Assembly (NCBI GenBank): GCA_020081605.1
Contig: JAHREC010000017.1
Coordinates: 32,984-96,983 of the forward strand
Source: Albifimbria verrucaria
Taxonomy: Eukaryota > Ascomycota > Sordariomycetes > Hypocreales > Stachybotryaceae
Reading direction: 5' to 3'
Length of the DNA stretch: 64,000 nucleotides
Positions 3,010 to 35,289 of the stretch are shown here, one piece after another (the stretch's first letter is position 1; each line of letters opens with the position of its first letter). A program made the translations under genes and the position numbers. Below the pieces are notes generated by a model. It saw only the letters and a program-made list of their open reading frames with translations, ran no database searches and was not told the origin of the DNA.

Positions 3010-6000
3010 TTAAGTTAGCTTATCCGCGTATATACAGATTAAAGTGACTCTTCCGGATTGAGAACCAGTTGCTACTCTGGATTCTGAGATAGCGAAACTG
3101 TTTCGGGAGGTTGGCCGGATATTCACTGGTAACCATAGCATCTTGTCCCCGTCCCATGTAATCCAACAGTCATCATCATCCAGCCCGCATCCTGATAGCA
3201 TAGGATTATTAATATCTACAGGTACATGGGGTGATAGGCGCGACAAGCGAGTGTTCTCTATCATCAGAATCCCAGCAATTGTAGATAGGTTGGAGCCGTC
3301 TGGAGTAAATGACAGCTGAGACGGTCCAGTATTGAAGATTTGTAGGCATTGGCCGGTCGCGGCATCCCAGACCCGGATGGTTTTATCATAAGAGACCGAT
3401 GCAAGACGCTGGCCATCCGGCGAGAATACCACCGAGGTTACCACACTGCTATGGCCCTCCAGCGTCTGCAGGCATTGGCCAGTTGTAGCATCCCAGACCC
3501 GAACGGTCTCATCACGGGAGGCTGATGCAAGATATCGGCCATCCGGCGAGAATACCACCGAGAGTACCGAGTGGCTATGGCCCTCCAGTGTCTGGAGGTA
3601 TTGGCCGGTCACGACATCCCAGACCCGAACGGTGTTATCATCCGAGGCCGATGCAAGATATCGGCTATCTGGCGAGAATACCACCGAGTCTACCGAGTCG
3701 CTATGGCCTTTCAGCGTCTGCAGACATCGGCCAGTTGTAGCATCCCAGACCCGAACGGTCTTATCATACGATGCCGATGCAAGATACTGGCCATCCGGCG
3801 AGAATACCACTGAGTCTACCGAGCTGCTATGGCCCTCCAGCGTCTGCAGGCATTGGCCAGTTGCAGCATCCCAGACCCGAACGGTCCCATCATCCGAGGC
3901 CGATGCAAGACGCTGGCCATCCGGCGAGAATACCACCGAGTCTACCGAGTCGCTATGGCCCTCCAGCGTCTGTAGGCATGAATCCCAGTTCTGGTCCAGA
4001 GTCCCAAGGATAGATAACCAAGCCCATTGACTCTTTAGGAACACATTTCGTACAGGGCTTTTGAGTGGTAAGACAGCGATAAGAGCGTAGATTTGAAGTG
4101 GGTAAGAAGCAATAGTTGACATATAGGTAAGGCTAAACCGGATAGCATCATCGAGTAGTATTATTGCTTCTTCGCTGCTCTGAGGCTTATACAGTAATGA
4201 GTATCTTTTACTGTTCAAATAGGATAGGCAGAACGCACCTGTGAAACAGAACGCAATGTTCGCAGAATTCCAAGGCTCTCTGATGCCTGCCCTAATAGAC
4301 TCAGTGCTTCGATCCAATATAGTAGGTGGCTGGAGAGGAAGAGGTAAAGTTCATTATCCGAGATAACCATGCCTCCTTTTTTAGGTGATCAACCCAGTAA
4401 AGACAGGCATACTCAAGCTCTGGCTGGATATGGTTAGTCACTGTTTGCTGATCTATATCGGATCGAGCGATTCCCGGTCTTCGCAAATCGCATATGTCCC
4501 TTCGAAGGCTTTCCTTCATTACGCGGAGGCAATGGACCACTATATCTTGATGTATCTGTCTCTCATCTATCCCAAGCGGCGTTTCCCCATGTTTCAGGGT
4601 CGACTAGAAAATCCCGGAAAGATAGATGGAGCAAGCGTATCGGACCCGTTGACGAAGAGGGAACATGCAGGACGGAATGGAGCATATCCAGCCTGACATC
4701 AATAATCTCCTGAGAAACATTTAGTAATTTCGCAAGAGCCGAGCTTGAAAGAGGACTCTCAAGGGTAACAATGGTGCCGACAACCTTTCGAAACTGTTGA
4801 ATGATCTCAGTTCTCTTTTGCTTCGGCTGAACGTCAATAATCTGTCGATTCAAGATTGGCAGGTACGTTGCGCTAAGACCAGAGCTTCCGCTCTTTCCCT
4901 TGTGCGCTATAATCTCGTCAAGCAGCTCGTTGGGGCGCCGTACCTACGATCGGCGACAAAACGACAGGCAGTTGCGGCAGAGATAAATAGGGGATCGCAA
5001 TGTCCATCAACGCCTTGATTGTCCGCTGATTTGGCCAGTCTGGAGGTAATCTCCGTGTCTCGCCTACCGTACGGTTATAATCATCCCGTATCGACTGGAA
5101 GTTTTGTTCCAAAAATAACGAGATATCATGCTCGATGATTTCAGATTTGATTTCGTGAAGAATGAAATCTTGGTAGGTGTCCTTCGCATCGTTGAATTCC
5201 AGGCGGATTGGTAACTCTGGCCTGCTCGTCATAAAGACTTTTACCCCGGGGATTTTTGGAGGGTGCATACGCGCAAAGAGATTGAGGATACTTCTGATCT
5301 TGTCATCGCCCTCACATTCATCTAGCGCATCCACAATGATGACGAGTGGACCCGACAAGGTGATCTTCGACAAGGGCTCAAAGACCAGCTTCTTGAACTG
5401 CTCCTGGATAGCTGAGCTCGATATCGTTGAGTCTCTTTCAAGTACCTCCATAAGCATCGGCGCTACCCTTGGATGTTTATCAGCGAGCTGGCGGGCTATT
5501 GTCGTCATGAACTTCGTGGCATTTCCTCGATCAGCCTCTCCTCTCTTGAAGAAGAAGCTGGCACCGAGGCGGTTTGTCTCAGATAGCGAGCGAGCGATGG
5601 TCCGCGATATGGTTGACTTCCCGTCCCAGCCATGCCATTCAACCAAAAGAGTGCCTTAGCGCTAGGATCGTGAATCCATGCCGATATCTGGTCGAGGAGC
5701 TCCACCCGCGTATTTTCAAGGCAAATCGGATTCGATCCTTCGTCATGCGAGTTAAACGAGGCACCTTTAGCGACAGGAAGCCGGTCAAGCATAATAGCTT
5801 GATCAGTGCTCAAGGAAATGGCACTGTCGACCGTTTCTGTTAGCTCGAAACGTGAGTTTGATGAGGAGAATTATGTTCTACAGATGGTCTTGCCGTAACG
5901 CCAGGGAAAGTGTCTGCGTGTAGCTTGCAATGTCTTGGACATCCTTGTCCACCTCTTGGTTGCTGAGAGGCCATCGTAAGGCCGTGAGCCCGAGGCGGGC

Positions 6001-13813: not shown

Positions 13814-15177
13814 TCAAAGACGATTGCGACGACAACGATTACATGCCTGAATTCGACACTGCCTGCACTCAAAAATGTATTCAGGAAGCCAGTGATAGCA
13901 CTCTTCACACTGGTGTCGGCCCTGACGATATACCCATCGTCTATGACTACACTCGTGATTCTCAAGCAGATTCTGCATTTCTTGTTGTCGCATTTGTTCT
14001 CGCTGTTGGCCAGTCAAGTTCATGGCCTGCGGATTTCGTTCTAGGAGAACTTGGGCACGCGCCACTAGCCTGTCCTCGTGGAAGTGGTCACATGTACATG
14101 TTTTCCACTCCGCACCACACTCATAACAGAATTCGGCTTGACATCTGCAGGCTGAGGCATCGAAGTTAGTATCTAAGTAAGCTGAAGGAAGTTGTTGAGA
14201 ATTAGAGGGTACTTACTCATATGGTTACAACCATGGCTTAACTCTACAAAGCGATGACAGGAATATCATTGTTGCCAACCTTCCTGCTTAGCAAAGTCTG
14301 CAAATTGTTCCAATTCTTCATTTTGCGGGCATTCTCTGCCCTGATGTGTAGCGGCCTTGCAAATGATGCAGGTTGCCTCCCGGCAATTTGGGCATACCGC
14401 TTTATCGGAGACGATGAATTGTTCAGGTATGAAAGTCGAGCAGGCTGGCACATGGCAATAAGTTCGGTTGATTGTAGCCAGTTCAGCCTCTCTGGCTTTG
14501 TATCTACCGGTGAGCACTGGGCCAAGCATAAATTCTGTGCTGCGCAATGATATGGGTTGCCGACAACAGCGCGGTGGAAAGAGAGACTCATCGGTCAAGC
14601 AGTCTGTATAAAGTCGAACGATGCAATCCTTGCAGTAGGAATGTGTACAGGTTAACTCAATCAATAAACTTTCTCCGAAGTACTCCGTACAGGTATCGCA
14701 CTGCCGGGTCTTAGACTGTCGCGAAGCAGCCCATTGCGAAGTTTCTCCTGGCTCATCACGAACGTTCAAAGTCAGCATTTTCTCAAAAAGCTCATTGTCC
14801 ACGTGTGGCAAAGTGCTCTGTATGGAATTAGCTCTTGACCGATCCTGTTGGACGGTAGATTCGCCAGTATGTTCGTCTTGCACACATTGCGCGGCATATC
14901 TATCGTTGCGTGCCTGTTGCTCGTGGAGCTCCAGTGCCAAGATGGTATCGCCGTCGTCGCGGACGGCAGTGGCCATACTCCTGCACATGACTGCATCTGT
15001 AGCAGTTTGTTTCGCTCGTTTGAGTTCGCTCTCATAGATATTTGTCGCAACAAGTGAATCTGGAGGTTCCCTGATACGATGTTTATCTTTGCTAGAAGAG
15101 TTGATATCCTCGATATCCTTAAGTTGGAGATCGATGATGAGACGTAAAGTTTCTTCGTCGATACTGGAATCGTCCAT
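13814..15177 (-). CDS. RING-between-RING (RBR) E3 ubiquitin ligase with an in-frame TGA in RING2
   Basis: RBR ligases take ubiquitin from an E2 onto a RING2 cysteine and pass it to substrate. The chosen start (15177, MDDSSIDEETLRL) precedes a helical region, then RING1 (CDTCTEYFGESL...CTHSYCKDCI...PPRCC), IBR (TYCHVPACSTF...CPNCREATCIICK) and RING2. Exon 1 runs to 14217; a 65-bp intron (14216-14152, GTAAGT...TACTAAC...TCAG) joins ATG-A to CC, keeping HGCNHMTCRC in frame with the presumed catalytic Cys of HGCNHM. Exon 2 ends at 13814 with a Cys-rich tail (CEECYHWLP, CRQCRIQACNRC). At 14268-14266 a TGA replaces the first zinc cysteine of RING2, and the same frame continues in conserved sequence on both sides. 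So the frame is intact except for one nonsense codon: a null allele, a base error, or (unlikely) readthrough. Family identity is secure. Confidence 0.87.
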
Positions 15178-15743
15178 GGTAGCAGTAGGATAGATCAAAA
15201 CAATATTCCTATTGAGAGTAAAGGTAAAATGTCAGTAATCTTGGAAAGTGGGCGTCAATGTGACGTTGGTTGCTGAAGCAAGGCTCTTGGGGCGAAGAAG
15301 CCCGCGATTGGCTGCCCTTGCATCATTTCGTTCCGTGTCTCGGAGCCGAAGGTTTCCACACCCGATTTCGGCCAGTTAAGCAGTCAAGGCCTTGTGTAGT
15401 TCAAACATTCCTTTCACATCAGCCCATCAGCCCATCTGCAGATATGAACAGAAGTGAAAGTCGAGCGTATCGAACATGCTTGATCACATGCTACAAAACA
15501 CTTGGAACTAAGCCAAACCTTACCAACTTCATCTCTTACATGTTATTGCTATCAATGAGTCGTTTCGTGTGGAATGAAATGTAAACTTTATTCCGGATGC
15601 GTCACTCATGTGGTTTGTTGAGTCTAACCTGAGACGTAAATCACAATTGAGTAACAGATATATATATACTGTCCTCTCTTCCTCCTGGAGCCAACCGCTC
15701 AATTTAGATCTTCAACTTTAGTCCGTTATTATACTATCTTCAA

Positions 15744-16367
15744 ATGTCTGAAGCTAGCAATCGTGTCACACTTCGAGTTGGCGAACGCCTATTCTATACC
15801 ACGAAAGATACTCTCACTGGCGAAAGTACATGCTTCAAAGCGCGATTTTCTAAATGGAACGATGCCGATGACGATGGAAGCTATTTTATCGATGGAGATC
15901 CCGTTTTATTCCAGACAATTCTCCAGTACCTCCGTTCTGGTATTCTGCCCTTATTCTTTGAGCCTGTAACGCAAACACACGATTTGGCAAAATACGCAGC
16001 GATACTCGGTGAGGCACGCTATTTTGGGATCAATAAACTGGAGGCATGGATTCTCGACAAGCATTATCTTCAGGTTGTCCACACACATACCAGTTTCCAG
16101 ATCCTTGATGAACCCGCGTTGAAGACAATCCCAGAACATAAGTCCAAAACTGCCCTCTCCACAACGAAAGTGGACTTTTACCCTACATCTGGTACTAGGA
16201 AAACATTGGTATGTCCCCAACAAATTTTGGATCGTTGGGGGCATCATCGATGCAGTGACTACTGTCTAGAAGGAAAGGGATCATTAGCTTGTACTTTTGA
16301 GGATGAAGCCTACTTCAAAGTTCTTGCTATCGAACGTACCGCTACGTTTAATCCGGAGATGCTCTAA
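15744..16367 (+). CDS. BTB/POZ (KCTD-type) domain protein
   Basis: An intact, intronless 207-aa protein. The N-terminus is a BTB fold of the potassium-channel tetramerisation type: VTLRVGERLFYTTKDTL (residues 7-23), FIDGDPVLFQTILQYLRSG (48-66) and YAAILGEARYFGI (85-97). Such domains mediate homo-oligomerisation and often act as Cullin-3 substrate adaptors; here no second domain is recognised and the last 100 residues are of unknown role. ATATATATA lies about 85 bases upstream of the ATG and may serve as a TATA-like element. Its next-door gene encodes an RBR ubiquitin ligase on the opposite strand, divergently arranged about 570 bp away, so the two could share a role in ubiquitination, but that is inference. 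Confidence 0.85.
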   Translation: MSEASNRVTLRVGERLFYTTKDTLTGESTCFKARFSKWNDADDDGSYFIDGDPVLFQTILQYLRSGILPLFFEPVTQTHDLAKYAAILGEARYFGINKLEAWILDKHYLQVVHTHTSFQILDEPALKTIPEHKSKTALSTTKVDFYPTSGTRKTLVCPQQILDRWGHHRCSDYCLEGKGSLACTFEDEAYFKVLAIERTATFNPEML

Positions 16368-18802: not shown

Positions 18803-19372
18803 TTAGGTGTATAGCCGTTTCCAAGTATCTAAAGTTGAAATTGACGATCGCGTATCAGGATGATCCAGCCCAAGTTTCAGAGCACAGAATTGGACGCAAT
18901 TTTCCATCAGATCGATGGCTTCGCGTATTTTCCTCGTGGAACACCAAGTGTAGGCTAAGTTATTCATACAAGTCAGTGTATCAGGATAGTCTGGTCCAAG
19001 CTTGGTCTTGATTGTTTCAATTACCAGTACAAAGAATCTCTCTGCTTGCTTAAACCAGCCTAGATCCCAATATATGGATACGAGATTAGCTGTACTTTTT
19101 AGCGTATCGGGATAGTCTACTCCATGCTTTATCTTACAAGCGTCTATTACCTCCATCTGAAGCGTCGCTGCTTCCTCCCATCGACCTTGATTTCTGTGTA
19201 TTGATGCGAGATTGGCCATGCTCATCAAAGTATCAAGGTGATCTGCTCCAAGCGTGGTCTTCCAAGTCTTCACCACTTGTGTATCAAGTCTCTCTGCCTC
19301 CTCCCATCGGCCTTGGTTCACATATGTTGATACTAGATTGACCATGCTCGTCAACGTTAGGGTTAGGGTTAG
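18803..19372 (-). pseudogene. TPR-only remnant of an NLR, truncated at telomeric repeats
   Basis: Three full 42-residue tetratricopeptide units plus one diverged unit (TSMVNLVSTY, MSMANLASIH, KSTANLVSIYW, MNNLAYTW; each with a GRWEEAE-type helix B and an HPDTL-type end). They match the TPR tail of the intact-looking NLR at 34441-35196. No NB-ARC or effector domain lies upstream: the first unit begins directly after two and a half CCCTAA units (19372-19357), read in frame as LTLTLTLTSM. The frame ends at 18803 inside another CCTAACCCTA word. It appears to be the 3' end of an NLR broken at a telomere-like junction. The frame extends upstream to about 19441 into unrelated sequence. Expression is not expected. 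Confidence 0.75.
19357..19372 (+). repeat. interstitial telomeric repeat, TTAGGG x2.7
   Basis: TTAGGGTTAGGGTTAG, the fungal and vertebrate telomere repeat, sits exactly where the TPR homology begins. A second partial match (TAGGGTTAGG, about 18798-18807) overlaps the stop codon at the other end of the same TPR block. Confidence 0.8.
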
Positions 19373-19441
19373 ACAGGGATATCCATCTCCATTAGGACCA
19401 GCCAAGCCTGGATGTTCCCTGGTTTGCCCAAATAAAGACAT

Positions 19442-21495
19442 AAATTCGACGTGTCGGAGTTGTGTCCATACTGCTTTCTTCCATCACACTAGCAAACATT
19501 TCAACTGCGTCTTTCATTGCATTTGATCTTCTTCCATGCTTAGTTGGCACCGAAGCTGACGGCCGAGAGTAAGTGGTTTTAGTCCAGTCAATCAATCATG
19601 GCTTAGCGAACATGCGCCGTCAGCCTCGCTGCCGCAAGCCGTCCGAGCCACCCCAGTGTACAGACCTTCTGCAGCTAAAACAGTCCTGATGAACATACCT
19701 TCATGCAGCCCTATGGGCATTGCCATTGCAAGACATCAGGGGCTTGAGCCGGCAGTACATTTAGTCAATATGAACGCTCTTTCAGCGACGAACGGGACCA
19801 GTTGGAATGATGTTACCAAATTCTACGATGGAACGTCATCATTGGGTGAGAAAGGCAAGTACAGTATGCAAATGTAAAACTGTTGTGACAAGCCCCGATG
19901 GAATTGCTTTAGCGGACACAACTATCCATAAACAACAGGAAGATTTTACCTCATATCCAGAAGAATAAGGTCGCGTACAGTATATTGATAAATCACTGTG
20001 CGAATCTGTAATAACAACTAGTGCGTCAGAGGAGAGAGGATTAGTTTATCCGGCAGACTATTTTGGGTGAGTATGGTTTGTAAATGCCCCCAAATGAAGG
20101 TGCACCCTAGAGCCTCAGGAGCGAGAAGAAAACTGGGATACCGAAGACAAAAGTGACGGCTCCATCGAAAGGCAGAAGCTGTCATCTAGACTCTACATTT
20201 GGTGTACAGTAATCTTTGCAGGTTCGATCGGATTTGTCGCTTTCGCTCCTGGTGATCCAGCCTCCAAGACCACGACCGTAAACCGTCAATAGCTCTTTAT
20301 AAACCGAGTCGTAGTTCAATCCCATGAACAATTTCAATGAGTGGCCCTATGCCTCCTGAAATGAACTTGTGTCTTTCGATCCTTTCCAACTTAGACTGAA
20401 TCCTATCCGCTGCCTCTTTCAATTGTTGGGGAATTCTTCTGAACTAAAATTCAAGTTAGCCAGTAGAGGATCAGAGAAAATCATGTCCACTTCTTGACCA
20501 AGCGTGGTCTTCTTATGGCTATTGGAATCCCAGTTGCCTAATCATGCCCGGACATATCTCCAGATAACTTCGTCATCACGAATCCCACGATGTTGTTGTC
20601 CAGTCGCGCTGGAAGTGGGATAGCTTGCCACTAAGATGAATAGTTTTGACATCACCGAACTCTAAAAATTGAATCATCATTATTAGTGGCTGCAATAACA
20701 TAGCCATAAGCCAGTCAGGCTCGGAAGGCGCCTGAGGTTCACTCATCACTAGCCCTCTCTAGACTAGTCGGGCCTACTTGCTTGGGCGCTGCACATAGGT
20801 CGTTCCCAGCAATTGTAATATGGGTTTTCTATTGCTGTTTTGGCACATTAATTTGCTATCTAACGGATAGTCCTACACCTACCAAATTGTACTGGTGGCA
20901 TCCCCAGCTCCCTGAAAAAGTGAACAGCATAATTTTGCTCATTTTTACTTCCGAAAAGAGCAGAAATATCAATCTTACTTTCCATTCTTAGAGAGATGGA
21001 GACAGAGGGGCTTTTACCGGCCTTGTTGAGCAGTTGTTGACCATACGAGACATCTGGTCCATCTCCAGAAATTGTACAAATCCTGTCATATGAAAAGTCT
21101 TTACGCGAGTAGCAGTACTCATTCTCTATTATTCCGTGTAGTATGTACTTGAGAATCTATCTTTACCTCGCCGAACCTCGCTTCTCGCCACGCCTGACAA
21201 GAAGCTCACCTGACGAAAGCCCTGAAGCAGTTTCTAGTTCATGACATGACCGTCCTCAAATAAGCCAAATCTCAAGAACTCCCTTGCGTAGAATCTATCA
21301 CCTTCTGTCTCAGTGCGGCTGATGCCGTGGCATGTTGTGACTGGTGGTTGAAAGAGGTGTGGTAGGCCTCCAGCATATCTTATGTGACATTGCCGCAAAA
21401 CTCGGTCGATCGTGAACTCTGCATTATTTCCACCCATGAAAACTTGGAAATTGACACTCCACCTCCTTTTGAGCATCCATTACCTTTTGGCGGAG
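19442..21495. other. gene-free stretch
   Basis: No frame with a recognisable domain. The word CCAAGCGTGGTCTT at about 20500 also occurs in the TPR relic (about 19248-19261), so a very short piece of NLR TPR sequence may survive here. Otherwise nothing identifiable. Confidence 0.4.
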
Positions 21496-22014
21496 ATGTC
21501 GTTCACAAAGAGCGGCGTCAAAAACAATGGCAAGGCCGCAAGTAAGCGAAAGCAGGCCAAACGCTGGTCCCTGCACCCAGCCCTCCACGCCGACGTATCA
21601 GCTTTGCTGGAAGAGGACAGTCTCGAATACAGCTTCTACAACGAAGACGATGAGAATAATTGTATTCGAGAGTACGATACAAACATCACCGGCCGGTTCG
21701 TCTGTCGAAATAACAATTGCACATCTAATGGATGGGCCAGCAAGCGAATTGCAATCACGATTCGGAAGTACGACAATAACAGCTACAACGCCAGGGTCTA
21801 TTACCAGAGATGCCAGGGTTGCGACACACTTGGCAAGCCCATTCTCGACAAGTCATACGCCGAGAGAGTCGCATATCGCCTTAAGAAATGGTCCGGCGTT
21901 GTGACGGAGCCTCCTCCCTACACGAACAAAAACAGCCAAACGCCTCATGAGGAGGACCTTTGCGAGGGCTGCAAGGCCGGGCATTGCGTTCGAGGAAGTA
22001 CATGGGTTTATTAA
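21496..22014 (+). CDS. 3CxxC-type zinc-finger protein
   Basis: An intact 172-aa protein; I chose the ATG at 21496 (MSFTKSGVKNNGK) because the upstream part of the frame is not family-like. It has a lysine-rich N-terminus (residues 1-25), then the 3CxxC fold: GRFVCRNNNCTSNGWASKR, YNARVYYQRCQGCDTLGKP, SYAERVAYRLKKW and a closing CEGCKAGHC. The family (zf-3CxxC) is common in fungi with no settled function; the same fold occurs in vertebrate receptor-transporting proteins, including interferon-induced RTP4, and in ZAR1, which bind RNA. No signal peptide or membrane span is visible, so a soluble, possibly nucleic-acid-binding role is likely. It converges on the nucleotide kinase (217 bases between stops) and lies within 1.3 kb of the viperin gene. 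Family assignment is strong; a link to antiviral defence is inference. Confidence 0.85.
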   Translation: MSFTKSGVKNNGKAASKRKQAKRWSLHPALHADVSALLEEDSLEYSFYNEDDENNCIREYDTNITGRFVCRNNNCTSNGWASKRIAITIRKYDNNSYNARVYYQRCQGCDTLGKPILDKSYAERVAYRLKKWSGVVTEPPPYTNKNSQTPHEEDLCEGCKAGHCVRGSTWVY

Positions 22015-22231: not shown

Positions 22232-23063
22232 CTAGACGAGAAACTGTGCTCTGGTTCTTTTCTCGGCCATAATTTGCCGCCATATTTCACTCTCGTTAAG
22301 CCTCTTGCTCAGAATCTGAATGTTGTCTTCCCTTGTTCCATTTGCGTCAATCTTGTCGGGTCAGCGTTTCTCGAGCTTGAGATGGGACATTGGGCCTTAC
22401 CTGCATCAGAATGCCGCGCTGTCGGTATATGTTCTCGACAGGAACAGTCTCCTGCGCATACTCTGCGAAGCGCATCTCAAATTTATCCTCGCTATCGTTC
22501 GCATCTCGTGCTCGGCTTAAATACCGCGCTTTGGCATTGTCCTTTGTAACATCAAATGAGAGCACTATGTCGGGCTGCAGGTCAGGTAGCCTTTCGCCGG
22601 CCCTGTCCAGAGCAAGTGTTTTTTGTCATGGAAAGGCCATTCTTCAGAGGCCTCTAGTTGCTCTACACACCGTGGAAATCCATCGAGTATAATCCCGCTC
22701 GCTTCTGGTTCTGGGCGGCCTGCAGTCTCCAAGATGGCCTGGCATAGAAAAGGGTTCAGGGCCTCAGCGCTGAGAAAACCTTGGTTCTCTAGCTTGTCCT
22801 GTATTTCGGCTGCGAGTGGTGTCGAGCGATTCTCCCGCACCCAGGCACGAAGGTAGTCTCCGACGGAATAATGAGTGAGATTGTGCGTGTGTGCCAGATG
22901 TGTTGAGAGCGTTCCTTTGCCCGCACCGGGCGCTCCTGTAAATGATTAGAACAGTGCGAATGGTGCAGTTAAGTGGTGCCACAATCAGTTTGGAAGAATT
23001 ACCCAGTACAAAAACTATGGCCAAGCTGCGATGAGATTTGTCGGAGCTGCTTGTGGTCTCCAT
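22232..23063 (-). CDS. UMP-CMP/adenylate-kinase-family nucleotide kinase beside viperin
   Basis: A nucleoside monophosphate kinase in three exons: 23063-23003, 22935-22401, 22315-22232. The introns are 67 bp (23002-22936, GTAATT...TTACAG) and 85 bp (22400-22316, GTAAGG...TTCAG). The first splice rebuilds the P-loop GAPGAGKGT. Then come the NMP-binding helix YSVGDYLRAW, the core IILDGFPRCVEQLE, the Walker-B-like PDIVLSFDV and the UMP/CMP-kinase-like FAEYAQETVPVENIY; the protein ends AEKRTRAQFLV. The only defect is a run of six A (plus-strand T run 22619-22624) where seven restore the frame. About 210-220 aa, normal for short adenylate or UMP-CMP kinases. No targeting signal, so probably cytosolic. 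It is divergent from viperin with 202 bases between starts. The natural reading is supply of CTP or UTP precursors to viperin, as CMPK2 does in vertebrates. NMP-kinase identity is firm; which base it prefers is not decided by sequence. Confidence 0.86.
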
Positions 23064-23265
23064 GGTCGGAGGATCATATGTAAAGGCGAAGGTGGGCCAT
23101 CAATCTGCAGCTGGAAAGGCCTTACTTTGTCTCAGGGCAGGCACGACATGCTGGAGGCCTTCCAATGATTCGTCATCAGTCAGCGCAAACACGAGCATCT
23201 CTTCTCAAGCTCCGAGGTTGGGGCGCGCTTTCAGTTTCCCTCTTCTTCTTTCTACGTGTGAATCC
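23064..23265. promoter_or_regulatory. shared divergent promoter of kinase and viperin
   Basis: The 202 bases between the two ATGs must hold both promoters. Visible words are a CCAAT box (about 23164-23168), an adjoining bZIP-like cluster (TGATTCGTCATCAGTCAG, 23169-23186) and a pyrimidine-rich tract (about 23231-23252) just upstream of the viperin ATG, typical of fungal start regions. A single bidirectional control region would co-express the pair. None of these sites is tested. Confidence 0.5.
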
Positions 23266-24302
23266 ATGGGAATCATTTATTTTAATAGTAGTATGCATTA
23301 TTTGTCGATCTTGATCATTGCTGCACTCGGTGCAGGGCTTCTTTACCTCTGTACCAGTATGAGAAGCCGCTTCTACCAGCCCCCACGCCGGCGCCGGATG
23401 CTCCGGTATCCGTCAACTACTTCCCCTCTCGCAAATGCAACTACACCTGCGGCTTTTGTTTTCACACAGAGACATCTTCCTATGTTCTTCCGATCGATGA
23501 AGCGAAGCGAGGTCTCCGGTTGCTAAAGGATGCCGGTATGCGCAAGTTGAATATTGCGGGAGGAGAACCATTCCTCTACCCTCACCTTCTTACTCAGCTA
23601 TTGCAATATTGCAAAGATGATCTGAGAGTCGAAAGCATCAGCATTGTGAGCAACGGCAGCAAGGTTAAGGAGACTTGGATGCAAAACAACTGCCAGTGGT
23701 TAGACATTCTTGCCGTGTCGTGTGACTCGTTCAACCAGAAGACGAACAAAAGGATCGGACGTGGTTCCGATGGAGGGAATGTGGCTCGGCTGTTCCAAAT
23801 TGCAGAGTGGTGCCGAAAATACGGCATCAAGTTTAAGCTGAACACTGTCGTGAACGCGCACAATTGGAACGAAGACATGGTTTCCAACATCGAGAAGTTG
23901 GCACCGTTTCGATGGAAAGTCTTCCAGTGTCTTCTTGTGGCTGGCGAAAACGAAGATGAATCGAGGCTGCGAGACGCACGAAATTTCCTCGTAACCACTT
24001 ATCAATGGCACGTATTCTGCGACAAGCACAGGCACCTCTCGTGCTATGTACCAGAGGATAACACCTCCATGGCAAGCAGTTACCTGCTTCTGGACGAGTA
24101 CATGTGTTTTCTGGATAAAGGCGAGGGTATAATGACCAAAAGCGAGTCTATCCTGAAAGTTGGCGTCAAAGAAGCAATGAAACAGGTCGTGTGGGATAGA
24201 AAATCATTTATTGAAAGAGGTGGTATCTACGATTGGAGTAGAGAGGACATGCTGCAGCAGGGTGGTTGCCAGAACGACGGCAGCAAAAATCTCGATTGGT
24301 GA
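23266..24302 (+). CDS. viperin (RSAD2-like): viperin-like radical-SAM enzyme (RSAD2 homologue)
   Basis: Viperin uses SAM and a [4Fe-4S] cluster to dehydrate NTPs to 3'-deoxy-3',4'-didehydro-NTPs, chain terminators that block viral RNA synthesis. From 23406 the match to animal viperin is almost continuous: cluster motif CNYTCGFCFH (CxxxCxxC, about 23439-23468), NIAGGEPFL, SIVSNGS, LAVSCDSFNQ, IGRG, FKLNTVVN, RWKVFQCLLVAGEN, CYVPE, SSYLLLDEYMCFLDKG, ERGGIYDWS, and the terminal LDW that in animal viperin is needed for cluster insertion by the CIA machinery. The N-terminus has a hydrophobic helix (MHYLSILIIAALGAGLLYL, from 23293), like the ER/lipid-droplet anchor of animal viperin, joined by a Pro-rich linker. 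The two parts are in different frames: a run of five C (23380-23384) would need six. An alternative is an 89-bp intron (23291-23379), which would remove the anchor. Start 23266 or 23293. About 345 aa, normal for the family. Identity is very secure. Confidence 0.93.
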
Positions 24303-29056: not shown

Positions 29057-29748
29057 GTCTTGCGCAACATGCAATAGTGGATTAAGCCACTACATAGCGT
29101 TATCCTTAGGCATGATATTGTAGTCCAAAACGCACTGTCGCTGCCTAATTTATGACCAGTCACGCGGCAAGGCCAATGCCCTAATCAAGTGGTTATTGGG
29201 CAAGTCAGATCGCTCAAATCTCCTACAGCGGCTCAGCGGGTCATGCGATTGCAGTGCTGTAGACTGGCTTTTGCAATTTTAATTTTTTCCCTTCAGTTCT
29301 TTCCCACCAAGTTTCCTTCTTCTACATGATGGCTAGTGCGCAAGCTGACAGTATGCCACTGTCATAATGTGTTTGGTAATTTAGGTGCAGCCTGGACGGC
29401 ATACAATAGTAGAATAGTGCAGTTTTTACCATTGGCAGACCCACTAGACGCACTGTAGACACCTAAACTCAGGTGCAACCCCATAAGTAAAGCAATCGTG
29501 TTTGATGCAATTTAGCCATCCCTGTATACATAGTACAGTAGTGTACTGCATATCTTCAATGGCTTTCATTTCCAGGGATACAACGATCCCAGCGAGTACG
29601 CAGTAAGTCCTCTTTACTTGGCGCTGTGCACGTCATCTTGACATGATACAACAGGGCCAAGAGGATCCAAAATGAGGACAAACGTGAAGATGCTCTTTCA
29701 TGGCATTTGCAATGCTTCCCCAGCACGAAATTATCCCTATCAGGGCAT
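29057..29748. other. intergenic, divergent promoter region
   Basis: Lies between divergent BAH-PHD and Cdc25-like genes. Contains a palindromic word (GTACAGTAGTGTACTG, about 29532-29548) of the kind scattered through this window. No gene seen. Confidence 0.4.
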
Positions 29749-30375
29749 ATGCCACCTAGAGGGGCAGAGACTTCCACCTCGTTTGGTTTCTACGCAGCAG
29801 CGGACGGCCGAAACGAACCCACATCCCTGATTCCGAGCTGGATACCAGACGATGTTGATGACTTAATACCTCGCATATCCTGCTGTACATTACTCGATAT
29901 CATCCATGGGAAATACGACGACACTTTTGAGCACCGAATACTGGTTGATTGTCGGTTTGGATACGAGTATGAAGGCGGTCATATCAATGGGGCGGTTCGT
30001 CACGCAGACAAATATGCGCTCGCGACACAACTGCTCCGACACTCAATAAGCAAACGAATTCTACTTGTGTTGTACTGCGAATTTTCTAAATATCGATCCC
30101 CACTAATGGCAAGTCACATTCGGTCCGAGGACCGAAAATTCAACAAGGAGAACTGGCCCAGGCTCAGCCTTCCACATACATACATCCTTGACGGCGGCTA
30201 CGACAGGTTTTATACCACAAACCCTGATGAATGTATTCCAAAAAGCTATACAGAGATGAAGGACATCAACTATAAAGACATATGCGAGCGTGAGTTGAAC
30301 CAACTGAGGTTACAAAGGACTCCAAAAAGAGCAAAGAATCGAACGGCCCATGGCGCGGCCGAGGCTAGAAAATAA
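29749..30375 (+). CDS. Cdc25-like phosphatase domain protein with altered active-site motif
   Basis: An intact 208-aa protein starting at ATG 29749. It is essentially only the Cdc25 catalytic (rhodanese-fold) domain: LIPRISCCTLLDIIHGKYD (about residues 39-57), LVDCRFGYEYEGGHINGAV (66-84), an active-site loop, MASHIRSEDRKFNKENWPRL and THYILDGGYDRFY-like YILDGGYDRF, ending YTEMKD plus a basic tail. Cdc25 removes inhibitory phosphates from cyclin-dependent kinases. The long regulatory N-terminus of true Cdc25 (NimT) is absent. The signature HCx5R reads YC-EFSKY-R: the nucleophile Cys and Arg remain, but the conserved His is Tyr (TAC for CAC, one transition). It may therefore be a weak phosphatase or a binding-only paralogue. 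Confidence 0.85.
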   Translation: MPPRGAETSTSFGFYAAADGRNEPTSLIPSWIPDDVDDLIPRISCCTLLDIIHGKYDDTFEHRILVDCRFGYEYEGGHINGAVRHADKYALATQLLRHSISKRILLVLYCEFSKYRSPLMASHIRSEDRKFNKENWPRLSLPHTYILDGGYDRFYTTNPDECIPKSYTEMKDINYKDICERELNQLRLQRTPKRAKNRTAHGAAEARK

Positions 30376-31515: not shown

Positions 31516-34500
31516 ATGACGCTCGATGCAAGTCACCTCCTCCTCTTATTCGTCATTCTCTTGGTCAGTTTTGCTGTCGTTTTCGCTTTCAAGTCTGCCG
31601 CGTACGACCGGCATTTATTCGGGGCAGGCGCCTGTTCCCCACAAATATCAATCAGAAGAGAATCTCGAGGAGCGGACGGACATTCCGCGTCCGAGGGTTC
31701 CTAGAGATTATGATGCTGACCATCTTGCGTCATTCTTGACAGAATCCTTCGATTCGGCGCCGACTATCGTATCGCTTGCTCTGGAGGTTCAGGGAGGTGT
31801 GCAGTCCGCTACTGTCTCCTTCCAAACCTTGCCAGATATCCTGCGCATGCCTGGATGCGCAAAGTCTATCCGGCTGCCTGGATCGCCAGAGAGAGAAGTC
31901 TTACGACCCACCTATCTTCAAGTAGATGATGGCTTCCATGGCATCACTACGCTTTTCATTCCACCGGAGAACGACCACCTACTCGAGTAAGTGGCCTTTG
32001 ACCGGAGAAATACATGTGCTGACCTTTTATTCATAGTATCGTTGCACTTTCAGGCCTCGGCGGCCATGCGTTCGGATCCTTTAAGCAACCGGCTGGTGAT
32101 TACATGTGGCTGCGTGATGCCCTTCCCTACGATCTTACCAGCGATGCCACGCAGCGGCCACTCGGGCGCGTAATGACGTTCGGATATGAATCAGGCGTTG
32201 CAGGAAGCAAGAATATGCAGAACCTTGAAGATCTGGCCACTATGCTGCACCGCAGCTTGCTTCCGCTAGTTGCTTCGCCAATCGTGCGGCCGATTATCTT
32301 CGTTGCTCACAGCCTTGGCGGGTTGATCGTCAAACAGGTAGACACGGCAGTTTGTTGACCTCGCTACTGTCACCTTGTTGCTGACATGATGTAGGCACTT
32401 ATCTCACTCTCAAAATCAAAGAACGAGGAAGATCAGAGACTCCTTCGAGCAGTCTATGGCATCGTCTTCTTCGGCGTCCCTCATGCCGGCATGAATATTA
32501 GATCGCTGATTTCGATGGCTGGAGATGGGCGAAGTCGGTTCCTGGTAGAGTCTCTCAGCCAGGACAACTCGCAGATCCTCAGTTATCATCAACGAGAGTT
32601 CGAGTCGGCGCTGGGCGGGCAGGGTGACTCAGAAGTGGTTTGCTTTTATGAGACAGTGGAATCTCCTACGGCACAGCAGGTACGTAGGACTATGCTTGCT
32701 GAGGCAGTATACGAGCTAATTGAAATAGGACAATACTGGCCGTTGGGTGATGGAAGGTCCCCTACCATATTGGTCTCGAAAGCTTCTGCAACGCATGGGC
32801 GGTCGTGGGAAAACGGTTCTGAGCACATCTGTGCAGTGGCTCGGACGCATTCAAATATGGTAAAGTTTGATCCAGGCGACCATGAGTATGATAAAGTGTC
32901 CGAAACACTGCGCGGACTTGCTTCCCGAGCCCTCAACGGGGACGTCGTGTACGGGGCTTAAATACTCACTGTAGGTAAAAGCAGCATTAAAGTTAGGTTA
33001 CAACTAATAAAGCTATAGTTATTGTCCCTTATACAGAAAATCTTTCCTTCGTCGGACGCTTCACAACCAGGGAGGCCCTAAAACATGAGCTGGGCTATAG
33101 CCGCGGCATCGGGACAGCTCAGGCTAGAGTATCCCTCTATGGCCTGGGAGGCGTTGGGTATGTCAAGTGTCGATAGCGGTACTTTTCAGTCTAACAGAGG
33201 GTAGAAAAACACAGATCGCTCTGGCATATGTATACCAGCTGCGTAAGATGCGACAGGATGTGTCTGTGTTCTGGGTGCACGCAAGCAACGCAGCGCGATT
33301 TCGCCAGTCACTAGGGACGATCGCTCAAAAATGCCAGATTCCTGGCTATGAAGACCCCAAAAACGATGTTCCGTTGCTAGTCAAGGCGTGGCTAGAGAGT
33401 CAAGACCGCGGGCAGTGGATCATGGTGCTCGACAATGCCGATGACATAAAGCTTTTTTCGAGCGACCTTACGAGGCATCTAATACGGTCGATAATGAGAG
33501 CGATCTACAACGATACCTTCCGGAGTGTGCGCATGGAGCTCTTCTTGCCACGACCAGAAACAAGAAGCTAGCGGTCAAATTGAGCCGAGGCCAAAACCAC
33601 ATCGAAGTGGACCCCATGAACGATGATGAGTCACAGCGACTGCTGCATGCCAAGCACATTAAAGCGACACCTGCTACCTTATCGTCGTTATCTTCAAGAT
33701 TGGAGCACCTACCTCTGGCCCTTGTCCAAGCCGCAGCTTACATCGAGGAGGAGTCGATCACAGTAGCTCAATACCTTGATCTGTTAGGCGATAACGATGA
33801 AAACACAATACAACTGTTAAGTAAGGAGTTTGAGACTGTTGGACGCGACTCTGAGACTCCTCGAGCTGTGGCACGAACATGGATTCTCTCTTTCCTAAAG
33901 ATCGAGGAGCAGCATGTCTTGGCTAGCGAACTCCTCTCATTCATGAGTCTACTGGATCGTCAAGCAATTCCAGCGGAATTCCTTTCGCACTATATTCGGC
34001 AGAAACAAAGTGATGAAGGACCACTTGGCGACATAGAACTGACAGAAGCCTTGGGGGTTTTAAAAGCCTTTTCATTTATAACTGAAGATAATAGCGGAAA
34101 CTATGATATGCATCGGCTCGTCCAACTAGTCACGCGTAAGTGGCTGATGAACAATGGTACGGTGAGTCGATTCGGGAAGGAAGTATTGATGGTTCTTGCA
34201 CACCTTTATCCATATAGCCGATATGAGACGCGAACGGTATGTGCTGCGTATCTATCGCATGCAAATGCTATATTACAAATAGGAGAGTTTACCTCAAAGG
34301 ACGAGGTCCAGGCAAAGGCATCGCTTCTGCATTGTATGGCAGCATACTTCGATTTTGAAGGACAATGGGGCGATGCGGAAAGGCTTAATTTGGAGGCTGT
34401 GCGGATGAGACGAGAAATTTTTGGCGAAAATGATACCTCTACGATGACCAGTATGGCCAACCTGGCATCGACGTACAGGAACCAAGCCCGGTGGGAAGAG

Positions 34501-35289
34501 GCGGAGAAGCTGGAGGTGCAAGTGATGGAGACTTCTCAGACGAAGCTCGGGGCCGATCATCCCGATACACTGACCAGTATGGCTAACCTGGCGTCGACGT
34601 ATAGGAACCAAGGCCGGTGGGAAGAGGCAGAGAAGCTGGACCTGCTAGTGATGGAGACTCAGAAGACCAAGCTCAGGGCCGATCATCCCTTAACGCTTAT
34701 CAGCATGGGAAACCTAGCATCGACGTACAGGAACCAAGGCCGGTGGGAAGAGGCGGAGAAGCTGGAGGTGCAAGTAATAAAGACTCGGAAGACGAAGATC
34801 GGACCGGATCATCCCGATACACTCACCAGCATGGCTAACCTAGCGTCGATATATATAAACCAAGGCCGGTGGGAAGAGGCAGAGAAGCTATTTATACAAG
34901 TAATAAAGACTCGGAAGACGAAGCTCAGGGCCGATCATCCCGATACGCTCACCAGTATGGGAAACCTGGCGTCAATATACTGGCACCAAGGCCGGTGGGA
35001 AGAGGCAGAGAAGCTGGACCTACAAGTGATGGAGACTCGGAAGACGAAGCTTAGGGCCGATCATCCCAATACGCTCACCAGCATGGCCAACCTAGCATTC
35101 ACTTATTGGAGCCAAGACCGATACACAGAAGCTATAGACCTGATGAGCCGATGCACCAAGCGACAGGCAGTTAGGCTCGGTGAAGCGCATCCAGCATATC
35201 ATAATAACGCTGTAACATTGGCTCAGTGGGAATCCGAGCTGGATGTTGCCGATGTCAATGGACCCGCTTTAGACGAGTTATCTAACTAG
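31516..35289 (+). CDS. SERAC1-like hydrolase/NB-ARC/TPR NLR-type protein
   Basis: A tripartite STAND protein. The N-terminus has a membrane helix (LLLLFVILLVSFAVVFAF, ATG 31516; frame offset to what follows), then a SERAC1-like alpha/beta hydrolase: DIVALSGLGGHAFGSF, YMWLRDALPYDL, FGYESGVAGS, and nucleophile elbow FVAHSLGGLIVKQ (about 32300-32337). Introns are 31987-32036, 32338-32394, probably 32681-32729, another between 32940 and 33034, and 33158-33204, the last splitting the P-loop (GLGGVG|KTQIALAY). NB-ARC motifs: FVGRF, Walker A, Walker B WIMVLDNADD, LLATTRNKK, LPLALVQAAAY, MHRLVQLV. Six 42-residue TPRs follow (34441-35196). Frame slips: four C (32759-32762; five needed after splicing) and six T (33453-33458; seven needed). 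In fungi such proteins are thought to detect non-self and trigger a lipase- or hydrolase-type response. The domain order is secure; exact exons are approximate. Confidence 0.85.
34441..35196 (+). repeat. six 126-bp TPR-encoding tandem repeats
   Basis: Units begin at 34441, 34567, 34693, 34819, 34945 and 35071, each coding TLTSMANLASTYRNQGRWEE-type TPRs ending in ADHPD. The first five are nearly identical in DNA and vary mainly at a few helix positions; the last is diverged (the cap). This is the same 42-codon period and concerted pattern as the WD40 array at 3.3-4.0 kb. Confidence 0.92.

Follow-up and report, generated by a model that had tools for sequence, protein, structure and literature searches.

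Viperins are described as antiviral enzymes that produce ddh-NTPs and so halt RNA synthesis (PMC10732462). Two of the closest described systems join such an enzyme to a kinase: a review essay has viperin activity depending on CMPK2, with about 15% of bacterial viperin genes adjoining a CMPK2-like kinase (PMC11249213). Vertebrate RSAD2 is likewise linked to a nucleotide-monophosphate (NMP) kinase, CMPK2, and the PADLOC pVip classes present prokaryotic viperins, to judge from the model names, as kinase-associated or kinase-fused. Shomar et al. (2024, Nat Ecol Evol) reportedly describe genetic linkage between eukaryotic viperins and nucleotide kinases, and viperin-kinase linkage as a general idea, possibly the fungal case too, may already be published.

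Here, we analysed a stretch of 64,000 nucleotides from Albifimbria verrucaria (the window), part of a 96,983-bp contig in an assembly of 48.4 Mb and 41 contigs. It holds a viperin gene back to back with a kinase gene, and we lean towards reading the two divergent genes as a dedicated viperin and kinase pair. While the linkage is known from bacteria and vertebrates, the fungal partner clade looks new; it is absent from the titles and abstract openings of the viperin literature searched, a limited collection that is not proof of absence.

A viperin gene and its divergent neighbour

The features of the locus are as follows:

21412..22014, plus strand: gene with a Zn_ribbon_3CxxC domain (PF13695), lying tail to tail with that of the kinase
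22232..22351, minus strand: partner kinase exon 3, through the stop
22352..22400, minus strand: kinase intron 2 (GT...AG)
22401..22935, minus strand: partner kinase exon 2, which carries the P-loop, the NMP-binding motif, DGFPR and the LID; its frame slips by one base near 22613-22627
22936..23002, minus strand: kinase intron 1 (GT...AG)
23003..23063, minus strand: partner kinase exon 1
23064..23265, no strand: divergent intergenic region of 202 bp, candidate shared promoter
23266..23379, plus strand: viperin 5' part, with ATG candidates at 23266 and 23293 and the hydrophobic N-terminal segment MHYLSILIIAALGAGLLYL; frame differs from that of the core
23380..23387, plus strand: one-base frame break in the viperin gene compared with Paramyrothecium foliicola P0001, at or close to a run of C
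23388..24302, plus strand: viperin radical-SAM core, to the terminal LDW and stop

The radical-SAM gene on the plus strand, with its stop at 24302, is a viperin according to family models and solved relatives. It scores 241 bits against the viperin model NF038283 (cut-off 180) and matches nine solved viperin sequences (E 6e-108 to 3e-96), which bears out the original prediction of a viperin from the CxxxCxxC motif to a terminal LDW. The vertebrate-type model TIGR04278 gave 385 bits, under its cut-off of 450; this lowers any claim to a vertebrate-type viperin and leaves the viperin assignment itself unaffected. CNYTCGFC (23436-23459), GGEP (23559-23570) and LDW with the stop (24291-24302) all lie in one open frame, the core sitting in an open frame of 336 codons. 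Among the matches listed, P0001 of P. foliicola, a member of the Stachybotryaceae (Hypocreales), is the best relative (96% identical), and full-length fungal relatives also start with a hydrophobic segment. The extent first proposed for the gene, 23266-24302, stands for its end and core, but the start at 23266 is out of the core's frame by the one-base break. Measured from that start, the proposed distance of 202 bp between the two ATGs is correct; from the start at 23293 it becomes 229 bp.

The whole-genome search returned this one viperin match. A radical-SAM match with stops on contig C16 was considered as a second copy and rejected, the viperin search having given a single match. Our scan of genome contigs turned up prokaryotic relatives at two loci, one from a Heimdall archaeon at 35% and one from a Bacteroidetes MAG at 33%; the scan of viral contigs found none.

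An ADK-type partner kinase

On the minus strand, 23063-22232 comprises a three-exon NMP kinase of the ADK superfamily with two GT-AG introns, which retains the P-loop, DGFPR, the LID arginines and ETVPV. Its best relative among the matches listed is P. foliicola P0121 (89% identical). Pfam was run on P. foliicola and other relatives of the kinase, a 91-residue piece from the window on its own having matched no family, and P0121 reached 71.5 bits for PF00406 (ADK; cut-off 26.8). AlphaFold models P0121 with the NMP-kinase fold (pLDDT 85.7); the top fold matches of this model are adenylate kinases, and UMP/CMP kinases follow from rank 11. Motifs, family and fold thus agree with the original prediction of an NMP kinase carrying a P-loop and an ETVPV segment.

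That the kinase would be UMP/CMP-kinase-like holds for the ETVPV likeness and not for the family. P0121 and P0122 score 74.9 and 80.6 bits against the UMP-CMP kinase model TIGR01359 (cut-off 207.6), and 101.9 and 94.4 bits against the adenylate kinase model TIGR01351 (cut-off 168), so that the adenylate kinase model scores higher and both stay far under their cut-offs. Judged from sequence, the ETVPV likeness is genuine but insufficient to fix the substrate. The partner kinase has PF00406, P-loop, DGFPR and the NMP-kinase fold in common with UMP-CMP and adenylate kinases, yet falls below both curated cut-offs and forms a separate clade: in the kinase tree, 16 partner rows group together (support 100/99), apart from three ADK-type genes of the same genome, which are partial sequences. 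Of the 17 distant fungal ADK-like kinases, 14 group with the partner clade. Across 76 kinases, positions conserved in at least 95% include, among others, the P-loop, DGPR (105, 106, 108, 109) and, in the LID, R158, R162, R164, D168 and R176.

The domain of CMPK2 is of the thymidylate-kinase type (PF02223), whereas the fungal kinase is of the ADK type (PF00406). Homology to CMPK2 was considered and is ruled out by the family models: PF00406 is found, and PF02223 reaches 19.8 bits in P0122 (cut-off 27) and has no listed match in P0121. Of the suggestion that this is the same pairing as RSAD2-CMPK2, the linkage survives, recurring in fungi (see below), and the CMPK2-type kinase does not. With kinases of two different types, the fungal partnership looks independently assembled. 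If true, a fungal viperin gained a nucleotide kinase dedicated to it and drawn from a family other than that of CMPK2, and kinase coupling would have arisen repeatedly instead of reflecting a single shared ancestral state.

Frame breaks in an indel-prone assembly

Both genes carry one frame break in the window. Beside the one in the viperin gene, the two halves of kinase exon 2 differ by one base, and P. foliicola P0001 and P0121 are uninterrupted at both sites. Were both breaks real, the pair would be decaying into pseudogenes, and a single break in each gene, against uninterrupted P. foliicola proteins, would fit such decay. We hold this to be very improbable: the motifs are kept, the viperin core lies in its long open frame, and comparable one-base slips occur in HSP70 genes and in the UMP/CMP-kinase-like gene of the same assembly. 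All six stretches read from split HSP70 matches (on four contigs) are frame slips without an intron, several of them at C runs, and the UMP/CMP-kinase-like gene on contig C36 slips at DGFP. Given these similar slips, the breaks in the viperin and kinase genes are probably sequencing or assembly errors. The assembly is indel-prone, with one-base slips in HSP70 genes and a UMP/CMP-kinase-like gene (L016, L017, L018, L020, L023), and frame-based calls in it need care.

Recurrence of the pairing in fungi

How often do fungal viperins have such a neighbour? The kinase search gave 132 matches, of which we took the best 120; the first 103 reach E 1e-37, after which values drop to 4e-18. From the viperin search with the window query, the best 120 of 2465 matches were taken. 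Scoring linkage by equal size in bp of the longest contigs, a proxy for the same contig, 37 of the 103 kinase clusters share a contig size with a viperin among those best 120 of 2465; they comprise 29 clusters from named fungi (27 names) and eight metagenome clusters. The P. foliicola viperin and kinase lie on contigs of identical size, and Orbilia oligospora is present with two strains. In seven of the 37 pairs the contigs measure at most 15.2 kb, which in itself means close linkage. Where locus tags could be compared, they are consecutive in 12 of 13 pairs, Fusarium oxysporum LZL87 being the lone exception, with its two tags seven apart. The chance of 12 neighbours in 13 has a log10 probability of about -42, assuming 8,000 genes per genome and bearing in mind that related species are not independent. 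The viperin-kinase neighbourhood thus exceeds chance in several genomes, and the adjacency whose frequency in fungal genomes was to be checked is recurrent. The head-to-head orientation is an observation from this window; for the other fungi, contigs and locus tags alone were compared.

The remaining 66 of the 103 kinase clusters have no contig match to the best 120 of 2465 viperins and are undecided: the strains behind the cluster representatives may differ, and the best 120 leave out most of the viperin matches. Colletotrichum and Diaporthe viperins among the matches listed likewise have no kinase contig match, and a Colletotrichum kinase cluster does exist (P0171, 15 members).

In Arthrobotrys conoides TWF506 we observed two pairs, P0040/P0154 and P0120/P0160, on separate contigs and each with consecutive tags. 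Trichoderma chlorosporum has a different ADK-like kinase (P0225) and an ordinary-type viperin (P0242) on contigs that are both 434,881 bp in size, possibly a second viperin-kinase pairing. Linkage of the distant Trichoderma-type kinases as a group was rejected as too weak, one of 17 clusters matching a viperin among those listed.

Fusion of the two proteins was also considered. Two kinase HMMs found no kinase domain in 240 viperins from the fungal queries, and a precomputed AAA_28 label on P0350 was not confirmed by them; a viperin-kinase fusion was accordingly dropped (0 of 240). This sets the fungal pair apart from prokaryotic pVip systems: here the proteins are encoded by separate, divergent genes, and the kinase gene has introns.

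Association with one viperin clade

The partner kinase appears tied to one clade of fungal viperins, marked by the motif NYFPSR. Among the best 120 of 2465 viperins found with the window query, 94 carry SVNYFPS, six are NYH-types, 14 lie outside the pattern and six are other variants. A query of the T. virens type listed 120 matches, 116 of them N(Y/F)H-types and four outside the pattern, and by the contig-size proxy none of these 120 listed viperins shares a contig with the 103 kinases. This ordinary type is represented, by sequence, by PDB entries 7n7i and 6b4c of T. virens, which P0241 matches.

A FastTree viperin tree of 143 rows, which took in a quarter of the T. virens-type list and nothing shorter than 285 residues, had one archaeal outgroup with a very long branch, animal viperins being absent from all our trees. 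In it, a single group unites the 29 rows from the T. virens-type list (support 100); the window and 35 linked rows fall within a group of 107 rows (support 99), two of the 37 linked viperins having been too short for inclusion. The Colletotrichum and Diaporthe viperins belong to the same 107-row group. Ordinary fungal viperins are of the same enzyme family and, when aligned, share 53-56% identity with P0001, but read NYHF(T/S)R where the linked clade reads NYFPSR, with 17 further clade-specific positions. Altogether, 19 positions split the 37 linked from 113 ordinary viperins with at least 85% agreement on each side; among them, just before CxxxCxxC, an H is replaced by F and an F by P.

Shared history of the two genes

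For co-evolution we compared IQ-TREE distances in 30 pairs, the 29 named ones plus Daldinia loculata, whose two contigs differ in size. Viperin and kinase distances correlate with a Mantel r of 0.853, a value reached in none of 9999 permutations, nor in any of 9999 when permuting within classes. Both gene trees mix Sordariomycetes and Dothideomycetes, the class labels of six species having been looked up and the rest assigned. In AU tests on taxonomic groups, run after the mixed trees had been seen, holding the ten Dothideomycetes together was rejected for viperin (p 0.0025) and kinase (p 0.0070), and holding the Sordariomycetes together led to rejection with the kinase (p 0.039) and to none with viperin (p 0.097). 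Neither Xylariales (0.20 for viperin, 0.18 for kinase) nor Botryosphaeriales (0.38 and 0.18) were rejected.

That both trees reject Dothideomycetes as one clade is a hint that the pair may have moved together. These trees allow two readings, joint horizontal transfer or an old duplication combined with linked loss. Between Monosporascus CRB-8-3 (Sordariomycetes) and Diplodia (Dothideomycetes), the viperins are 83% and the kinases 80% identical, versus 77% and 61% between Monosporascus and Fusarium poae of one class. Counting against this contrast are Paramyrothecium, also of one class with Monosporascus, at 84% for viperin (from an N-terminally short model) and 60% for the kinase, and Daldinia, of one order with it, at 85% and 80%.

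A putative two-enzyme route

What might the two enzymes do together? A recurrent pair, back to back in our window, suggests a linked two-enzyme route to RNA-stopping nucleotides. By the chemistry of its family, the viperin would remove water from an NTP (probably CTP or UTP) to yield 3'-deoxy-3',4'-didehydro-NTP, a product predicted to terminate RNA chains. The ADK-superfamily kinase would phosphorylate an NMP, probably a pyrimidine, and by analogy with CMPK2 may let a local pool of viperin substrate, or recycled ddh-NMP, reach the triphosphate. Co-regulation from the intergenic region is likewise putative; promoter and repeat scans of these 202 bp gave nothing informative, the promoter consensus being a bacterial one.

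Alternatively, the kinase could act in salvage or detoxification, re-phosphorylating ddh-NMP released from terminated RNA or diverting it, rather than loading the NTP pool. A specialised substrate would fit its divergence from both curated models, as would the xGD motif, where x is V or I in the partner kinase versus A or T in the genome's own ADK-type genes. Substrate cannot, however, be read from divergence alone, and we regard this role as rather unlikely.

It is also conceivable that the genes are linked and co-inherited for metabolism or development and not for virus defence, and no fungal viperin is named in the titles of the viperin-mycovirus literature searched. We judge this quite improbable, given that viperins are described as antiviral (PMC10732462) and that class-mixed gene trees may resemble those of defence genes. 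The dedicated pair, with a putative antiviral role, stays our preferred reading. If it holds, the two proteins make a manageable system in which to study the viperin's choice of nucleotide and its possible use by fungi against their own viruses.

Neighbouring genes

The 3CxxC gene at 21412-22014, the single PF13695 match in its own genome, is possibly a third member beside the pair, as a candidate only. Human RTP4 is described as an interferon-inducible restriction factor whose N-terminal 3CxxC zinc-finger domain is needed for antiviral activity (PMC10470548). This vertebrate antiviral protein and the window gene have the domain type in common; in a sequence comparison with solved structures, the 3CxxC protein had no relative (best E 1.4).

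A more far-reaching proposal, which we consider unlikely, would make the NYFPSR viperin and its private ADK-type kinase a two-gene cassette that has travelled between fungal classes in one piece, its nucleotide specificity shifted and its kinase specialised for ddh-nucleotides, and would combine it with the 3CxxC gene into a small defence island resembling interferon genes.

Elsewhere in the window, we observed STAND/NLR-like pieces at 3010-5646 (minus strand), 18803-19441 (minus strand) and 33580-35289 (plus strand), namely a NACHT/NPHP3_N ORF near a WD40 ORF as well as TPR-repeat ORFs, one with DUF7779. Within 14266-16367 and 29707-30375 there are an IBR-domain ORF, a BTB ORF and a rhodanese-domain ORF.
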